Shown: positions 31,769 to 63,846 of the stretch, piece after piece
How the letters are laid out: every line of letters starts with the position of its first letter
Numbering within the stretch: position 1 is the stretch's first letter
Origin: an uncultured Faecalibacterium sp.
GTDB lineage: Bacteria; Bacillota; Clostridia; Oscillospirales; Ruminococcaceae
Direction of reading: 5' to 3'
DNA length: 64,000 nt
NCBI GenBank assembly: GCA_900539945.1
Contig: UQDV01000009.1
Span: 13,187 to 77,186, forward strand
The notes under the pieces: generated by a model
Told to the model about the DNA's origin: nothing
Seen by the model: only the letters and a program-made list of their open reading frames with translations
Databases searched by the model: none
Position numbers and translations under genes: made by a program

Positions 31769-31786
31769 AAAAGCGCGGCCTTGTCC

Positions 31787-31815
31787 TTGACAAACCGCGT
31801 GGAATCGTCTATACT
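31787..31815 (+). promoter_or_regulatory. Promoter of antitoxin RNA copy 1
   Basis: Consensus TTGACA (31787-31792) and TATACT (31810-31815) with a 17-base spacer, located only 18 bases after the sigE stop. Confidence 0.85.
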
Positions 31816-31821
31816 GAAAAT

Positions 31822-31920
31822 ACAAAAGGCGCTGGCCCATACAAACGACTAGCTCCTTACCAGATTGATCAGAAAAAATGACCGTTCAGGCTTGGGAACT
31901 TGAAGGCGGTCATTTTTTCT
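31822..31920 (+). ncRNA. Small RNA, type I antitoxin copy 1
   Basis: A transcript of about 100 nt is predicted from a consensus promoter to a hairpin (31873-31884 with 31907-31918) with T runs on both strands. It has no open frame with a ribosome site. It contains ACGACTAGCTCCTTACC, a sequence complementary to a Shine-Dalgarno. It reads antisense into the 3' end of a truncated toxin copy. A nearly identical unit repeats 191 bases downstream. The ends are inferred from promoter and terminator only. Confidence 0.65.
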
Positions 31921-31972
31921 TTTTATCATCCCTGTGCGAGACAGTCCATGTGATCTGAAATGTAACACGGCC
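31913..31972 (-). pseudogene. 3' remnant of a holin-like toxin gene
   Basis: The minus strand encodes VTFQITWTVSHRDDKKKK and a stop, equal to the last 18 codons of the toxin at 32103-32213 with one change (Ser to Arg). Upstream of this the sequence passes into the next antitoxin promoter, so start codon and membrane segment are gone. It shows that the antitoxin unit was duplicated together with only the toxin's tail. Confidence 0.7.
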
Positions 31973-31977
31973 TGCCC

Positions 31978-32006
31978 TTGACAAACCGCGCGGAATCGTC
32001 TATACT
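31978..32006 (+). promoter_or_regulatory. Promoter of antitoxin RNA copy 2
   Basis: TTGACA (31978-31983) and TATACT (32001-32006), spacer 17, differing from copy 1 by one base in the spacer. Confidence 0.85.
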
Positions 32007-32012
32007 GAAAAT

Positions 32013-32112
32013 ACAAAAGGCGCTGGCCCATACAAACGACTAGCTCCTTACCATATAGTGATCAGAAAAGATGACCGTTCAGGTGTGGAGACTTGAAGGC
32101 GGTCATTTTTTC
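32013..32112 (+). ncRNA. Small RNA, type I antitoxin copy 2
   Basis: The second copy of the about 100-nt RNA, ending in hairpin 32070-32081 with 32099-32110. It overlaps the 3' end of the complete toxin gene on the opposite strand, as in TxpA/RatA- and BsrG/SR4-type pairs where the antisense RNA meets the toxin mRNA tail. It differs from copy 1 mainly in the loop and in the CATATAGTGATC segment. Confidence 0.7.
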
Positions 32113-32213
32113 TTTTTATCATCACTGTGCGAGACAGTCCATGTGATCTGAAATGTAACGTAGATTGCTCCGCCAAGCAACGAAAGTAGCATTACGACCT
32201 GTTCAAACGTCAT
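32103..32213 (-). CDS. Small holin-like membrane toxin (type I toxin-antitoxin)
   Basis: A 36-residue peptide: MTFEQVVMLLSLLGGAIYV, then TFQITWTV and a basic tail ending DDKKKK. One membrane span followed by lysines is the form of the putative holin-like (BsrG/TxpA-related) toxins of Firmicutes. AAAGGGGGGA lies eight bases before the ATG. The stop overlaps the terminator of the antisense RNA. The product is too short for most gene callers. Toxicity is inferred from form and from the facing RNA. Confidence 0.75.
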   Translation of the reverse strand: MTFEQVVMLLSLLGGAIYVTFQITWTVSHSDDKKKK

Positions 32214-53079: not shown

Positions 53080-53122
53080 CGCTATGCGATGGACTGATGC
53101 TCCTCGCACCAGCACACGGCAG

Positions 53123-53590
53123 TTATTCAATTTCAATCCGATTGGGGTTTGCAGGCAGAGCCTTCTGCTGCTGGGGTGCAGGCAGCTGGATGTGCAGGAT
53201 GCCATCCTCGAACTTTGCGTGGATGTCCTCTTTCTTCACGGCATCGCCCACATAAAAGCTGCGGGCGCAGGTGCCGGAGAAGGTCTCGCGGCGGATGTAG
53301 CGGCCGTTGTTGTCCTTCTCATCGTTCGAGTGGCTGCGCACGGCCTGAATGGTCAGGTAGCCGTCGTTCAGTTCCATCTGAACGTCTTCCTTCTTGCAGC
53401 CCGGCAGGTCCACGGCCACATCGTAGCCGTTCTCGGTCTGCCTCACATCGGTCTTCATCATGTTTGCACCGCGCTTGCCGAAGGTCTCGCGCTCTTCACG
53501 GTTCATCGCACGCTCCAGCGCACCATCGTTCCAGAACGGATCAAAGAGATCATCGAACAGATTCTCATGGAAAACAGCAGGCATAAACAT
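53123..53590 (-). CDS. Hsp20/alpha-crystallin small heat-shock protein, copy 1
   Basis: A 155-residue holdase chaperone. The N-terminal arm (AVFHENLFDDLFDPFWNDG) precedes the alpha-crystallin domain (about residues 43-140: MKTDVRQTENGYDVAVDLPG, GYLTIQAVRS, CARSFYVGD, KFEDGILHIQLP). The C-terminal I-x-I anchor reads RIEIE. AGGAATG lies just before the ATG. Control is by a CIRCE-type operator over the promoter (53712-53754). The copy at 63379-63846 differs only in NRIEIE versus NLIEIE. Confidence 0.94.
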   Translation of the reverse strand: MFMPAVFHENLFDDLFDPFWNDGALERAMNREERETFGKRGANMMKTDVRQTENGYDVAVDLPGCKKEDVQMELNDGYLTIQAVRSHSNDEKDNNGRYIRRETFSGTCARSFYVGDAVKKEDIHAKFEDGILHIQLPAPQQQKALPANPNRIEIE

Positions 53591-56141: not shown

Positions 56142-56384
56142 TCCATTGGCCTCTCGGCCACCCCGTCTTCTTTATGACCGGGCCTCGAATTACGGAAGTA
56201 TCATTGTCTGGAAGTACCTGAAGCTGCATATTCAATTTTCAAGGTCCGCACGGCCCCGGTCTTGCTCCCTTTCGGGGCCAGGCCGTTTCCGTGACATGAT
56301 TGTATCGTACTTTCGCAGAAAAGTTTAATGAAACATCCAACTTTTTGAATTGCGCTGTTCCATCACTCACCGCTGCAAAAAAAC
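56142..56384. other. Gene-free junction region
   Basis: No supported frame. A GGCCCCG/CGGGGCC hairpin at about 56255-56281 is the only structure seen. The region leads into the promoter of the permease gene. Confidence 0.45.
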
Positions 56385-56458: not shown

Positions 56459-57703
56459 ATGAAATCACAAATGAAGTTGAAGCAATTCGCGTTTGATGAG
56501 CGCAGCGAATCAATGAAAGCCCCAGTGGGGCTTTTAAGCGACCGAACGGTCTTGCGTAGCAAGATGAAGAGGCTTCGCCTCTTCAAGTTCTTCAAACAGG
56601 AGACCGTTCTTTCGGTCGCCGCTGTACTGGCCGTGCTCTCCATGTTCTTTGTGCCGCCGGATGCAGACTACCTCGGTTACATCGACCTGCGCACGCTCGC
56701 CATTCTGTTTTCCCTGATGACCATCATGGCCGGGCTGCGGCGGCAGGGCGTTTTTGACCGGATGGGCCGGGCGCTGTTGGCACGGACCGGCAGCACCTTG
56801 CAGCTGGCGCTCGTTCTGGTCGGACTGTGCTTCTTCGGGAGCATGGTCATCACCAACGATGTTTCCTTGCTGACCTTTGTGCCTTTTACATTTGTGGTAC
56901 TGAGCGGCCTTGCGCCGGACACCCGCCGGGCGCTGACCATCCCAGTGGTGTGCATGCAGACCATCGCGGCCAACCTTGGCAGTATGCTCACGCCCATCGG
57001 CAACCCGCAGAACCTCTACCTCTACGGCAAAAGCGGAATGCGCATGGCAGAGTTCCTCCTGCTCATGCTCCCCTACACGGTCGTTTCGCTGCTGCTTCTG
57101 GTGGGCTGGGCGGTCGCGGTCTGCCGCAAACAGGCATCCTCCTGCATCGGTGCGCTCCCGGAGCAGCCGAACACCACCGCAGACCGGAAAATCATCCTGC
57201 TGGATGCGGTGCTGTTTGCGGTCTGTCTGCTGGCGGTCGTCCGGGTATTGCCCTACGGCGTTGCCTTTGCCGCTGTGCTGGTCTGTACCCTCTGCGCTGA
57301 CCGCTCCACTCTCCGCAATGTGGATTACTCCCTGCTGCTGACCTTTGTGGCATTCTTCGTTTTCATCGGCAATCTGGGGCGCATCCCGGCCTTTTCGGGC
57401 TGGCTGCAAGCCATCCTCGCCGGGCGGGAAGTGCTGGTGGCAGTTCTGGCTTCGCAGGTCACCAGCAATGTTCCCGCTGCCCTGCTCCTGTCCGGGTTCA
57501 CGGATGAAACCGCCGCGCTTATCATCGGCACGAATCTCGGCGGCCTTGGCACCCTGATCGCGTCCATGGCCAGCCTGATTTCCTACCGCCAGATCGCGCG
57601 GGAGCTACCGGAGGAAAAAGACCTCTACTTCAAGCTGTTCACCCTGTCCAACCTGATTTTTCTGGTGATCCTGCTGGCTGAATGGAGGATCCTCGGGCGA
57701 TAA
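56459..57703 (+). CDS. SLC13/ArsB-superfamily anion permease with hairpin-element insertion
   Basis: A 414-residue transporter of the ion-transporter superfamily with about ten spans. It has VITNDVSLLTFVPFTFVVLS and the NLGSMLTPIGNPQNLYLYGK substrate hairpin, repeated in form near the end as QVTSNVPAALLLSGFTDETA. Likely substrates are dicarboxylates, sulfate or arsenite. Residues 11-44 (AFDERSESMKAPVGLLSDRT and following) are encoded by a 99-base hairpin-array element plus a repeated TTC. Without it the protein would begin MKSQMKLKQFFKQETVLS. The insertion is a multiple of three, so the frame survives; whether the protein works is unknown. Confidence 0.82.
   Translation: MKSQMKLKQFAFDERSESMKAPVGLLSDRTVLRSKMKRLRLFKFFKQETVLSVAAVLAVLSMFFVPPDADYLGYIDLRTLAILFSLMTIMAGLRRQGVFDRMGRALLARTGSTLQLALVLVGLCFFGSMVITNDVSLLTFVPFTFVVLSGLAPDTRRALTIPVVCMQTIAANLGSMLTPIGNPQNLYLYGKSGMRMAEFLLLMLPYTVVSLLLLVGWAVAVCRKQASSCIGALPEQPNTTADRKIILLDAVLFAVCLLAVVRVLPYGVAFAAVLVCTLCADRSTLRNVDYSLLLTFVAFFVFIGNLGRIPAFSGWLQAILAGREVLVAVLASQVTSNVPAALLLSGFTDETAALIIGTNLGGLGTLIASMASLISYRQIARELPEEKDLYFKLFTLSNLIFLVILLAEWRILGR
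56489..56587 (+). repeat. Hairpin-array insertion element, copy A
   Basis: A 99-base unit made almost wholly of consecutive short hairpins: AAAGCCCC-AGT-GGGGCTTT, GACCG-AA-CGGTC, CTTGC-GTA-GCAAG and AAGAGGC-TTC-GCCTCTT, led by ATTCGC...GCGAAT that overlaps the left edge. TTC flanks both sides (56486-56488, 56588-56590). Copy B at 58490-58580 has the same order with compensating stem changes. Confidence 0.8.
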
Positions 57704-57726
57704 GACCGAAACGTGGAGGTTCCGAA

Positions 57727-58380
57727 ATGAAGCATCGTATTGTCACGGCCGCACAGATGAAGGCCATCGAACAGGCCGGGAATGCTCACGGCCTACCCTA
57801 TCTGCAGATGATGGAGAATGCCGGGCTTGCAGTCTACGCTGAACTGAAAAAAGCCCTTCCGCAGCCCAGCACCCTGCTGGTGGTCTGCGGAAAGGGAAAC
57901 AACGGCGGGGACGGTTTTGTCATCGCCCGCGCCGCTGCAAAAGAGGGCTGGAAGGCAACCGTCCTTCTGGCCGAAGGCGAGCCGAAAACGCCCGATGCCA
58001 TCACAAATTTTGAACGCCTGCACGGCCTGCCGGTGGAAATTTTCACCGACGGTTCCGGACTTTCCGCTGAACCGTTTACCGCTGTCGTGGATGCGCTCTA
58101 CGGCACCGGATTCCATGGCAGTCTGCGTCCTTCCGGCCTTGCCGCCTGTGCGCTGATGAACCGTCAGCATGAAAACGGCGCGTTTGTTCTGGCGGTAGAC
58201 CTGCCCAGCGGCATCAACACCGACACCGGCGAGGTGGCCGAAGGTGCCGTCTGCGCCGACCTGACCGTCACGTTCGACAGCTGCAAGCCGCTGCACACGG
58301 CAGCATCGTCCGCACCGCTCTGCGGAAAAATCGTCTGCGCCGACATTGGCATCCGGGACGAGTGGCACCCGGCGTTCTGA
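57727..58380 (+). CDS. nnrE: NAD(P)H-hydrate epimerase (YjeF N-terminal domain type)
   Basis: A 217-residue protein that interconverts R- and S-NAD(P)HX for repair. It has YLQMMENAGLAVYAELKKAL, LVVCGKGNNGGDGFVIARAA, VVDALYGTGFHGSLRP and AVDLPSGINTDTGEV. The dehydratase half (NnrD), often fused, is absent and not adjacent. The start at 57727 follows GTGGAGG. It begins 23 bases after the permease stop and may be co-transcribed with it. Confidence 0.9.
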   Translation: MKHRIVTAAQMKAIEQAGNAHGLPYLQMMENAGLAVYAELKKALPQPSTLLVVCGKGNNGGDGFVIARAAAKEGWKATVLLAEGEPKTPDAITNFERLHGLPVEIFTDGSGLSAEPFTAVVDALYGTGFHGSLRPSGLAACALMNRQHENGAFVLAVDLPSGINTDTGEVAEGAVCADLTVTFDSCKPLHTAASSAPLCGKIVCADIGIRDEWHPAF

Positions 58381-58468
58381 TTTTCTATTATGCTTCAAGC
58401 TGTATTCTTGATTCGTTCATTTCTGGATGTTACAGTATAATAGATCAAGCAAAAAGGAGTGTACTGCA

Positions 58469-58955
58469 ATGGAAGAAATCGAAAAGTTCGCGTTTGCGCA
58501 GCAATGAAGTCCCCAGTGGGGACTTCAAGCGACCGAACGGTCTTGCCGCAGGCAAGATGGAGGGGCCTTGCCCCGACAAGTTCCTGAAAGAAGCCGAGAC
58601 CTACTATCTGGCAACCGTGGAAGGCGACCAGCCGAGAGTTCGCCCCTTTGGTACGGCGCACATTTTTGAGGGCAAGCTGTACATCCAGACCGGCAAGAAG
58701 AAGGATGTTTCCAAGCAGCTGCACGCCAACCCGAAAGCCGAGCTTTGCGCTTTCAAGGGCGGCGAGTGGATTCGCGTTGCTGGCGAACTGGTCGAGGATG
58801 ACCGCATCGAGGCACGGCAGTCCATGCTGGACGCTTACCCCAGCCTGAAAAAGATGTACGCCGCAGATGACGGCAACGCTGAGGTGTTCTACTTCAAGAA
58901 CGGTGTCGCCACCATCTACGCCTTCACTCATGAGCCGGTCGTCATCAAGTTCTGA
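58469..58955 (+). pseudogene. PNPOx-like flavoprotein gene interrupted by hairpin element
   Basis: A good AAAAAGGAG site and ATG 58469 start MEEIEKF, then the hairpin element adds AFAQQ and a stop. After the element the same protein resumes: FLKEAETYYLATVEGDQPRV, RPFGTAHIFEGKLYI and so on to the end. Removing the element and one TTC restores MEEIEKFLKEAETYYLATVE. An ATG within the element (58557) could restart a 132-residue product in the right frame, but no ribosome site precedes it. The parent family is the FMN split-barrel proteins related to 19261-19662. Confidence 0.78.
58490..58580 (+). repeat. Hairpin-array insertion element, copy B
   Basis: A 91-base unit: AAGTCCCC-AGT-GGGGACTT, GACCG-AA-CGGTC, CTTGCC-GCA-GGCAAG and GGGGC-CTT-GCCCC in the order of copy A. 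It is flanked by AAGTTC on both sides (58484-58489 region and 58578-58583). The GCGTTTG start and AAG end are shared with copy A. Its length shifts the host frame and brings in a stop. Confidence 0.8.
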
Positions 58956-63341: not shown

Positions 63342-63378
63342 GGGTTATGCGCCGGTGTTCCTCACACTGGCATAACGG

Positions 63379-63846
63379 TTATTCAATTTCGATGAGATTG
63401 GGGTTTGCAGGCAGAGCCTTCTGCTGCTGGGGTGCAGGCAGCTGGATGTGCAGGATGCCATCCTCGAACTTTGCGTGGATGTCCTCTTTCTTCACGGCAT
63501 CGCCCACATAAAAGCTGCGGGCGCAGGTGCCGGAGAAGGTCTCGCGGCGGATGTAGCGGCCGTTGTTGTCCTTCTCATCGTTCGAGTGGCTGCGCACGGC
63601 CTGAATGGTCAGGTAGCCGTCGTTCAGTTCCATCTGAACGTCTTCCTTCTTGCAGCCCGGCAGGTCCACGGCCACATCGTAGCCGTTCTCGGTCTGCCTC
63701 ACATCGGTCTTCATCATGTTTGCACCGCGCTTGCCGAAGGTCTCGCGCTCTTCACGGTTCATCGCACGCTCCAGCGCACCATCGTTCCAGAACGGATCAA
63801 AGAGATCATCGAACAGATTCTCATGGAAAACAGCAGGCATAAACAT
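63379..63846 (-). CDS. Hsp20/alpha-crystallin small heat-shock protein, copy 2
   Basis: A 155-residue protein identical to the copy at 53123-53590 except Arg to Leu in the C-terminal I-x-I region (LIEIE). Promoter bases TTGACA and TATAAC are present upstream and the CIRCE repeat begins at 63984 but is cut by the end of the window. Both copies should therefore be induced together by heat. Confidence 0.94.
   Translation of the reverse strand: MFMPAVFHENLFDDLFDPFWNDGALERAMNREERETFGKRGANMMKTDVRQTENGYDVAVDLPGCKKEDVQMELNDGYLTIQAVRSHSNDEKDNNGRYIRRETFSGTCARSFYVGDAVKKEDIHAKFEDGILHIQLPAPQQQKALPANPNLIEIE

Follow-up and report, generated by a model that had tools for sequence, protein, structure and literature searches.

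The 64,000-nucleotide stretch of DNA from an uncultured Faecalibacterium sp. analysed here (contig UQDV01000009.1, positions 13,187 to 77,186; hereafter the window) carries two copies of a small, folded, mobile unit, one in a permease gene (unit 1) and the other in a PNPOx gene (unit 2). Both are insertions, as a sequence-only reading of the window had claimed, and related genomes are empty at the same codons. Small folded non-autonomous repeats are already known; what is new here is the particular fold, together with a left flank whose sequence varies in step with bases inside the unit. In agreement with that reading, we found no description of the unit in Faecalibacterium in the part of the open-licence full-text literature that was searched.

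The comparison with orthologues lacking the unit had been set beforehand as the test of mobility, and both window sites are empty in all orthologues aligned. For the permease, these were the 23 best matches (74-97% identity) from 31 Faecalibacterium genomes, which were accessed by way of named loci, and in each the Phe codon is followed directly by the next codon. In G002, the permease protein is 97% identical, the upstream DNA is shared with the window and the site is empty, so the window permease insertion looks recent. For PNPOx, the same codon is uninterrupted in the five closest matches (53-78% identity), and the covariance model described below detects a unit in none of 14 PNPOx-like loci. 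Two further copies were read with their flanks joined (hyphens mark junctions). The TTC-type copy L073 has empty sites AACTTC-CAGTTT in three relatives, and the CC-type copy L071 has empty sites AAATTTCC-AATTY in four, the filled site being AAATTCC, with one T fewer. At copy L010, 14 relatives matched and the junction was too diverged for an empty site to be read. The target was already present in every empty site read, as TTC (TTT in some orthologues) or CC, and it is kept on the left of the inserted unit.

Units 1 and 2 both begin with GCGTTTG, finish with CAAGTTC and sit directly 3' of a host TTC. Their kinship, already proposed, is confirmed by a common 51-nt core that is 86% identical; the core AAGCGACCGAACGGTCTTG, with up to 3 mismatches allowed, has 2 matches, as opposed to 0.01 expected from shuffling. 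The starts given by the sequence-only reading (56489 and 58490) stand, and its ends are replaced by 56590 and 58583, which give lengths of 102 and 94 nt when the right-end TTC of each unit is counted as its own. The position of the cut is ambiguous, either side of the shared TTC being possible. Of the flanking repeat proposed earlier as TTC or AAGTTC, TTC is upheld and AAGTTC fails as a rule (the left flank of unit 1 is CAATTC). Both strands fold more stably than shuffled sequences, and the sense strand (z of -4.1 and -3.6 for the two units) does so to a greater degree than the antisense strand (-3.0 and -3.4). The two units score 115 and 110 bits, respectively, with the covariance model, and no Rfam model falls at the units, either in the window at the gathering threshold or at 9 loci at E values up to 1.

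The fold is conserved in the family. From 90 exact matches, one of which lacked an end, we obtained 77 distinct units and aligned 74 of them, leaving out two units whose ends were misparsed and another from an array. Six helices comprising 32 pairs are paired in 98.7% of 2314 cells, compared with 94.2% in shuffles and 37-48% when the fold is slid along the alignment, and 14 pairs have changed on both sides, compared with 5.3 in shuffles. The covariation first noticed between the stems of the two window copies is thus real in the family alignment. Two of the stems lie beyond those recognized earlier: in the window units, the left flank and first bases UC-GC pair with an internal GCGA, and the right-end GUUC pairs with an internal GAAC. 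Across the family, the last two bases of the left flank and the GC of the element pair with an internal GCGR (guide 1), and an internal GARC (guide 2) pairs with the 3' end of the element. The whole forms a double three-way fold, with one module made of the left target and 5' end, hairpins I and II, and guide 1, and the other of guide 2, hairpins III and IV, and the 3' end.

Since the copies are related, we reduced the 159 sites (phage copies included) to 39 clusters by flank similarity and kept one representative of each; each guide could be parsed in 27 of the 39, leaving 12 unparsed. Among the clusters parsed, the last two bases of the flank are complementary to guide 1 in 23 of 27, where shuffling gives 8.9 on average; for the right end and guide 2, the count is 21 of 27, with a shuffle mean of 9.0. 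None of 100000 shuffles attained either count. The left flank therefore covaries with guide 1, as the right end does with guide 2. Such complementarity is an observation; from it we infer that the guides may act in target choice.

The insertion target, for which a constant sequence had been sought, is not constant family-wide: TTC holds in one large subtype, CC in another, and TTT and TTG are rarer. TTC targets are accompanied by guide GCGA and CC targets by GCGG, whereas the rarer pairings, TTT with GCAA (two clusters) and TTG with GCCA (one cluster), are known from filled sites alone. In a Tn916-Xis-like gene (PF09035), where an insertion is shared by several genomes, TTC occurs with GCGA in copies L020 and L053 and TTT with GCAA in L032 and L077. 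The consensus of the TTC-type target, from 19 clusters, is AANTTC-NNNTTT, A-rich on the left with T preferred at +4 to +6. In three copies (L042, L028, and L054), the left flank belongs to one recurrent context and the right flank to another, which suggests recombination within units; the match between guide 2 and the right end is broken in L042 and L054.

Further copies, which the sequence-only reading had expected in other genomes, are numerous. A degenerate pattern recovered 71 stretches in a species-level genome collection, 70 in eight named Faecalibacterium assemblies and one in a Subdoligranulum metagenome-assembled genome, and a search of 9 genomes with a covariance model gave 153 copies, 3-37 per genome. 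Matches occur in 16 of the 31 genomes of the genus, 14 of which contain 6-37 copies. With stricter filters, 13 of 297 genomes sampled at the family level matched; two had already been counted, and the other 11, outside the genus, hold diverged copies, of which most of the 21 printed keep the plan with different stems, as judged by eye. In one diverged subtype (L090, L091, and L092, in G003), part of the copies form 166-nt tandem repeats, and the double fold is kept with stems TGCCC/GGGCA and GACC/GGTC. BLAST matched 11 phage records: phage FP_Toutatis appears twice, with a copy between genes, and the other nine are unverified faecal contigs that could hold bacterial DNA. Unit 1 had no match in the plasmid collection. 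Units are about 90-106 nt long in the family and also occur in tandem arrays of 2-4 with a spacing of 94-104 nt. In some arrays (L012, L019, L030, and L067) the neighbours differ in sequence, so that the arrays are not due to slippage alone, and array size varies at one shared site (one unit in L052, three in L056).

To place the copies relative to genes, we used predictions from our own simple finder (hexamer model) and excluded phage copies. Among 153 sites, 23 lie inside predicted genes, 13 in sense and 10 in antisense orientation; orthologous sites are counted apart, and several of the 23 are one site in different genomes, as in the Tn916-Xis-like gene. The length is divisible by three in 17 of these 23 copies, compared with 50 of the 130 outside genes. 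The coding tolerance suggested earlier is therefore partial, and the placement near the 5' ends of genes seen in the window is no rule across the family. Copies outside genes are nearly balanced with respect to the upstream gene (68 in the same orientation, 59 opposite), and 14 of the 68 lie 4-11 nt past its stop codon; no sense-strand rule relative to genes emerged. Within 1.5 kb of the 159 sites, protein clusters typed against Pfam by one representative each include integrase-like (16 sites), relaxase-like (16), mobilisation-like (13), and resolvase-like (10) members.

We tentatively favor, at somewhat less than even confidence, the view that the unit is a small non-autonomous element of Faecalibacterium and relatives that moves as a folded single strand through an enzyme of the HUH/Y1 type, with target choice by base pairing. 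One strand, which would be DNA, would fold into the two three-way modules; a trans-acting single-strand transposase (HUH/Y1, of the IS200/IS605 type) or a relaxase would cut and rejoin it, with cut and target sites picked by pairing with the two internal guides, and insertion beside an existing copy would produce the tandem arrays. This scheme borrows the logic of IS200/IS605 elements, for which passages of PMC5934647 and PMC8266576 describe a left target that is kept, internal guides, hairpins, and no inverted repeats; in IS608, the target stays in the left flank, where a guide recognizes it by base pairing (PMC5934647, in part). The unit likewise inserts on the 3' side of a short target, which remains to its left (PNPOx, permease, and the two further copies, the position being ambiguous by the shared bases) and has hairpins and internal guides complementary to the target side and to the right end. 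Furthermore, one resident IS200-like group also uses TTC: in all 5 copies its left end immediately follows TTC, and a GAAA, complementary to TTTC, precedes its left hairpin. It is conceivable, although we consider it doubtful, that the gene-less unit carries its own guides and that joint changes in guide and ends retargeted its natural subtypes (to TTC, CC, and perhaps TTT or TTG), possibly with more than one resident enzyme.

Several observations weigh against movement as a guided single strand. No cognate transposase was found; among the nine element-bearing genomes, PF01797 was detected in five, one of them with a fragment only, and not in the other four, all multi-contig, and no unit lies near the Y1 loci. 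The ends of the resident IS200-like elements are unlike the unit except for the target, the only matches being 19 nt resembling hairpin II (E value of 2.7), and near the left end of a second resident Y1 group stands CTTGAG rather than TTC, in all 3 readable cases. As a separate observation on this group (L079, L083, and L084), the shared CTTGAG of the left flanks stands 9 nt ahead of the left hairpin. A parent with separated ends was sought and rejected: in 8 genomes, all matches to a left-half model above 45 bits belong to full units, as judged by eye, and the weaker matches (22-34 bits) include nine regions that score 14-27 bits with the full model. The position of guide 1, 3' of hairpins I and II, and the presence of two hairpins per module depart from the IS608 model, whereas guide 2 lies 5' of its own hairpins, as expected. 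The match between guide 1 and the flank is broken in 4 of 27 clusters (for example, those with flanks TTA and TAA), the preference for T at +4 to +6 is not predicted by the mechanism, and covariation is equally expected of a structural RNA. TTC, or TCC in CC-type copies with a shift of one base, can be read on both sides, so that a short target duplication is possible; the three bases may also come from the element's own end. Finally, the bias in orientation relative to replication is modest: in 8 complete genomes, 89 of 133 copies, after collapsing, are co-oriented with it (26 of 28 G002 copies used, terminus set half a genome from dnaA). Because the resident ends differ, a second Y1 group has CTTGAG, PF01797 was not detected in four genomes, no parent was found, and guide 1 lies on the other side, we liken the unit to guided single-strand elements in its working without assigning it to IS200/IS605, and the second Y1 group without TTC, the possible short duplication, and the many recurring sites led us to lower our confidence in the mechanism.

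Other kinds of movement would account for part of these data. A site-specific recombinase, be it an integrase of the tyrosine or serine class or an RNA-guided enzyme of the IS110 type, might act on a circular unit whose target resembles the junction between right and left ends. Indeed, the TTC-type consensus resembles the tandem junction CAAGTTC-GCGTTTG on both sides, and tandem arrays and the nearby integrase-, relaxase-, mobilisation-, and resolvase-like genes would fit. We nevertheless consider this unlikely: target and element share just 2-3 bases at the crossover, the left flank varies with guide 1, and we could link no recombinase gene to the unit, although IS110-type genes were not part of the search. 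A classical miniature inverted-repeat transposable element (MITE), moved in trans by a DDE transposase with duplication of TTC or TCC, is less probable again, even though the size, the absence of an enzyme gene, and the three bases readable on both sides of TTC- and CC-type copies agree with it. There are no terminal inverted repeats: no inverted pair of at least 12 nt joins the ends of either window unit, and the termini GCGTTTG and AAGTTC are not inverted. Nor was a parent transposon with the same ends found among the left ends above 45 bits in the 8 genomes, and the duplicated bases would have to be almost constant and paired with internal bases.

The alternative that the fold serves the host as an RNA (3'-end stabiliser, attenuator, or regulator) under host selection, mobility being secondary, appears improbable to us, if slightly less so than a MITE. 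It would explain the same-strand copies shortly past stop codons, the common G-U pairs on the sense strand, the joint change of flank and guide at the shared Tn916-Xis-like insertions, and the recurrence of many sites, as seen in the reduction of 159 sites to 39 flank clusters. The near balance of orientations, the antisense copies in genes, and the emptiness of both window sites in every aligned orthologue argue the other way. That PNPOx is still made because ribosomes skip the insert (bypass between two TTC codons) or because the RNA is processed (splicing) seems very improbable. TTC at take-off and landing, strong hairpins, and a frame-breaking length in PNPOx would suit such skipping, but most in-gene copies keep the frame without it, the in-frame ATG of unit 2 would be a simpler way to make PNPOx, and most sites lie outside predicted genes.

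Among other small repeats, REP elements are shorter than the Faecalibacterium unit. The repetitive extragenic palindromic sequences and their mosaics (REP/BIME) are small, folded, dispersed repeats proposed in excerpts of PMC8266576 to move in trans by a Y1 enzyme (TnpA-REP), and the unit, as far as that description goes, resembles them in being small, folded, and dispersed; unlike in REP/BIME, however, its GTAG, present in 21 of 77 units, lies within the loops of hairpin I or III and not at a hairpin foot. Rickettsia palindromic elements, of about 150 bp, are likewise small and folded and can insert in frame into protein genes (PMC10969869, in part), and the unit shares these traits at the level of description; it differs in being mostly outside predicted genes and in a left flank that follows a rule. 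BOX, RUP, and SPRITE of pneumococcus are small folded interspersed repeats with tandem modules and mutual insertion (PMC3049150 and PMC10969869, in part), whose modules, by the descriptions in those passages, differ from those of the unit. If guided movement is correct, the family would show, across natural variants, how the target of a mobile element without genes shifts along with a few internal bases, and would open base-paired target choice to study outside IS608. The unit also points to recent gene disruption and newly added protein segments in a genus abundant in the human gut, and it offers a marker found in phage records and near genes of conjugative elements.

Both effects are seen in the window, as the sequence-only reading had stated. 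The permease frame stays open and gains 34 residues, whereas in PNPOx the frame shift and stop reduce the gene product to MEEIEKFAFAQQ-stop, a 12-residue frame. An in-frame ATG at 58557, inside unit 2, leaves the remaining PNPOx open for 132 aa, so that the unit itself would reopen the rest of the gene from a putative start.

Table 1. Host genes and parts of the two inserted units (window coordinates)
Feature	Position	Strand	Basis or remark
Permease gene, CitMHS, PF03600, carries unit 1	56459..57703	+	Pfam
Unit 1, 102-nt insertion in permease gene, frame kept	56489..56590	+	Empty in 23 aligned orthologues
Unit 1 left target TTC, retained (Phe codon of the host); its final two bases paired to guide 1	56486..56488	+	TTC or TTT in orthologues
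Unit 1 hairpin I, TTGAT/ATCAA	56493..56513	+	Fold; TTGC/GCAA and TTGT/ACAA in other copies (by eye)
Unit 1 hairpin II, TGAAAGCCCC/GGGGCTTTTA	56514..56536	+	Fold and covariation
Unit 1 guide 1, GCGA, complement of TC-GC spanning left junction	56538..56541	+	Covariation, cluster test
Unit 1 guide 2, GAAC, complement of right-end GTTC (56587-56590)	56544..56547	+	Fold, covariation, cluster test
Unit 1 hairpin III, TCTTGC/GCAAGA	56550..56564	+	Fold and covariation
Unit 1 hairpin IV, GAAGAGGC/GCCTCTTC	56566..56584	+	Fold and covariation
Truncated PNPOx start MEEIEKFAFAQQ, stop supplied by unit 2	58469..58507	+	Translation
Unit 2, 94-nt insertion in PNPOx gene, frame broken	58490..58583	+	Empty in 5 closest orthologues
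Unit 2 retained left target TTC, host Phe codon	58487..58489	+	TTC or TTT in 5 empty orthologues
Unit 2 hairpin I, TTGC/GCAA	58494..58504	+	Sequence
Unit 2 hairpin II, TGAAGTCCCC/GGGGACTTCA	58505..58527	+	Fold and covariation
Unit 2 guide 1, GCGA	58529..58532	+	Covariation, cluster test
Unit 2 guide 2, GAAC, complement of right-end GTTC (58580-58583)	58535..58538	+	Covariation, cluster test
Unit 2 hairpin III, TCTTGCC/GGCAAGA	58541..58557	+	Fold and covariation
Unit 2 hairpin IV, GGGGC/GCCCC	58562..58574	+	Fold and covariation
Rest of PNPOx, PF01243, open from ATG within unit 2	58557..58955	+	Pfam and translation; start use putative

Many CC-type copies lie in the hairpin loop of a second, unrelated dispersed repeat (L034, L049, L059, L062, L090, and others), whose loop hosts them in both orientations. 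The layout of this repeat is GTGAAAA, a long hairpin with variable paired arms and the loop CGCA, an AT-rich stretch, and then CCGCT...ATGSSC...GCGG..SSCAT, which looks like a pseudoknot; its arms appear by eye to change together (ATGCGC/GCGCAT, ATGCCC/GGGCAT, and ATGGCC/GGCCAT). We also recovered eleven sequences of the repeat that carry no insert and have the loop CGCA, although two are nearly alike; they count in favor of the main reading. A stem of at least 6 flanks the junction at 17 of 35 CC-type sites, many of which share this one host repeat and are not independent, compared with 3% of 700 controls; the corresponding values are 2 of 42 compared with 2% of 840 controls for TTC-type sites (mean stem of 3.6 compared with 3.1, p of 0.006) and 6 of 23 compared with 4% of 455 controls for other sites. 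The hairpin loop as a target was rejected.

The window also contains a pemK RNA motif (RF02913, 57.9 bits) at 56143-56207 on the minus strand, about 280 nt upstream of unit 1 and on the opposite strand. Two longer repeats are present as well: a 300-nt stretch occurs twice at 99% identity, 10 kb apart (53122-53421 and 63378-63677), and two adjacent copies of about 190 nt, 94-96% identical, occupy 31782-32159.

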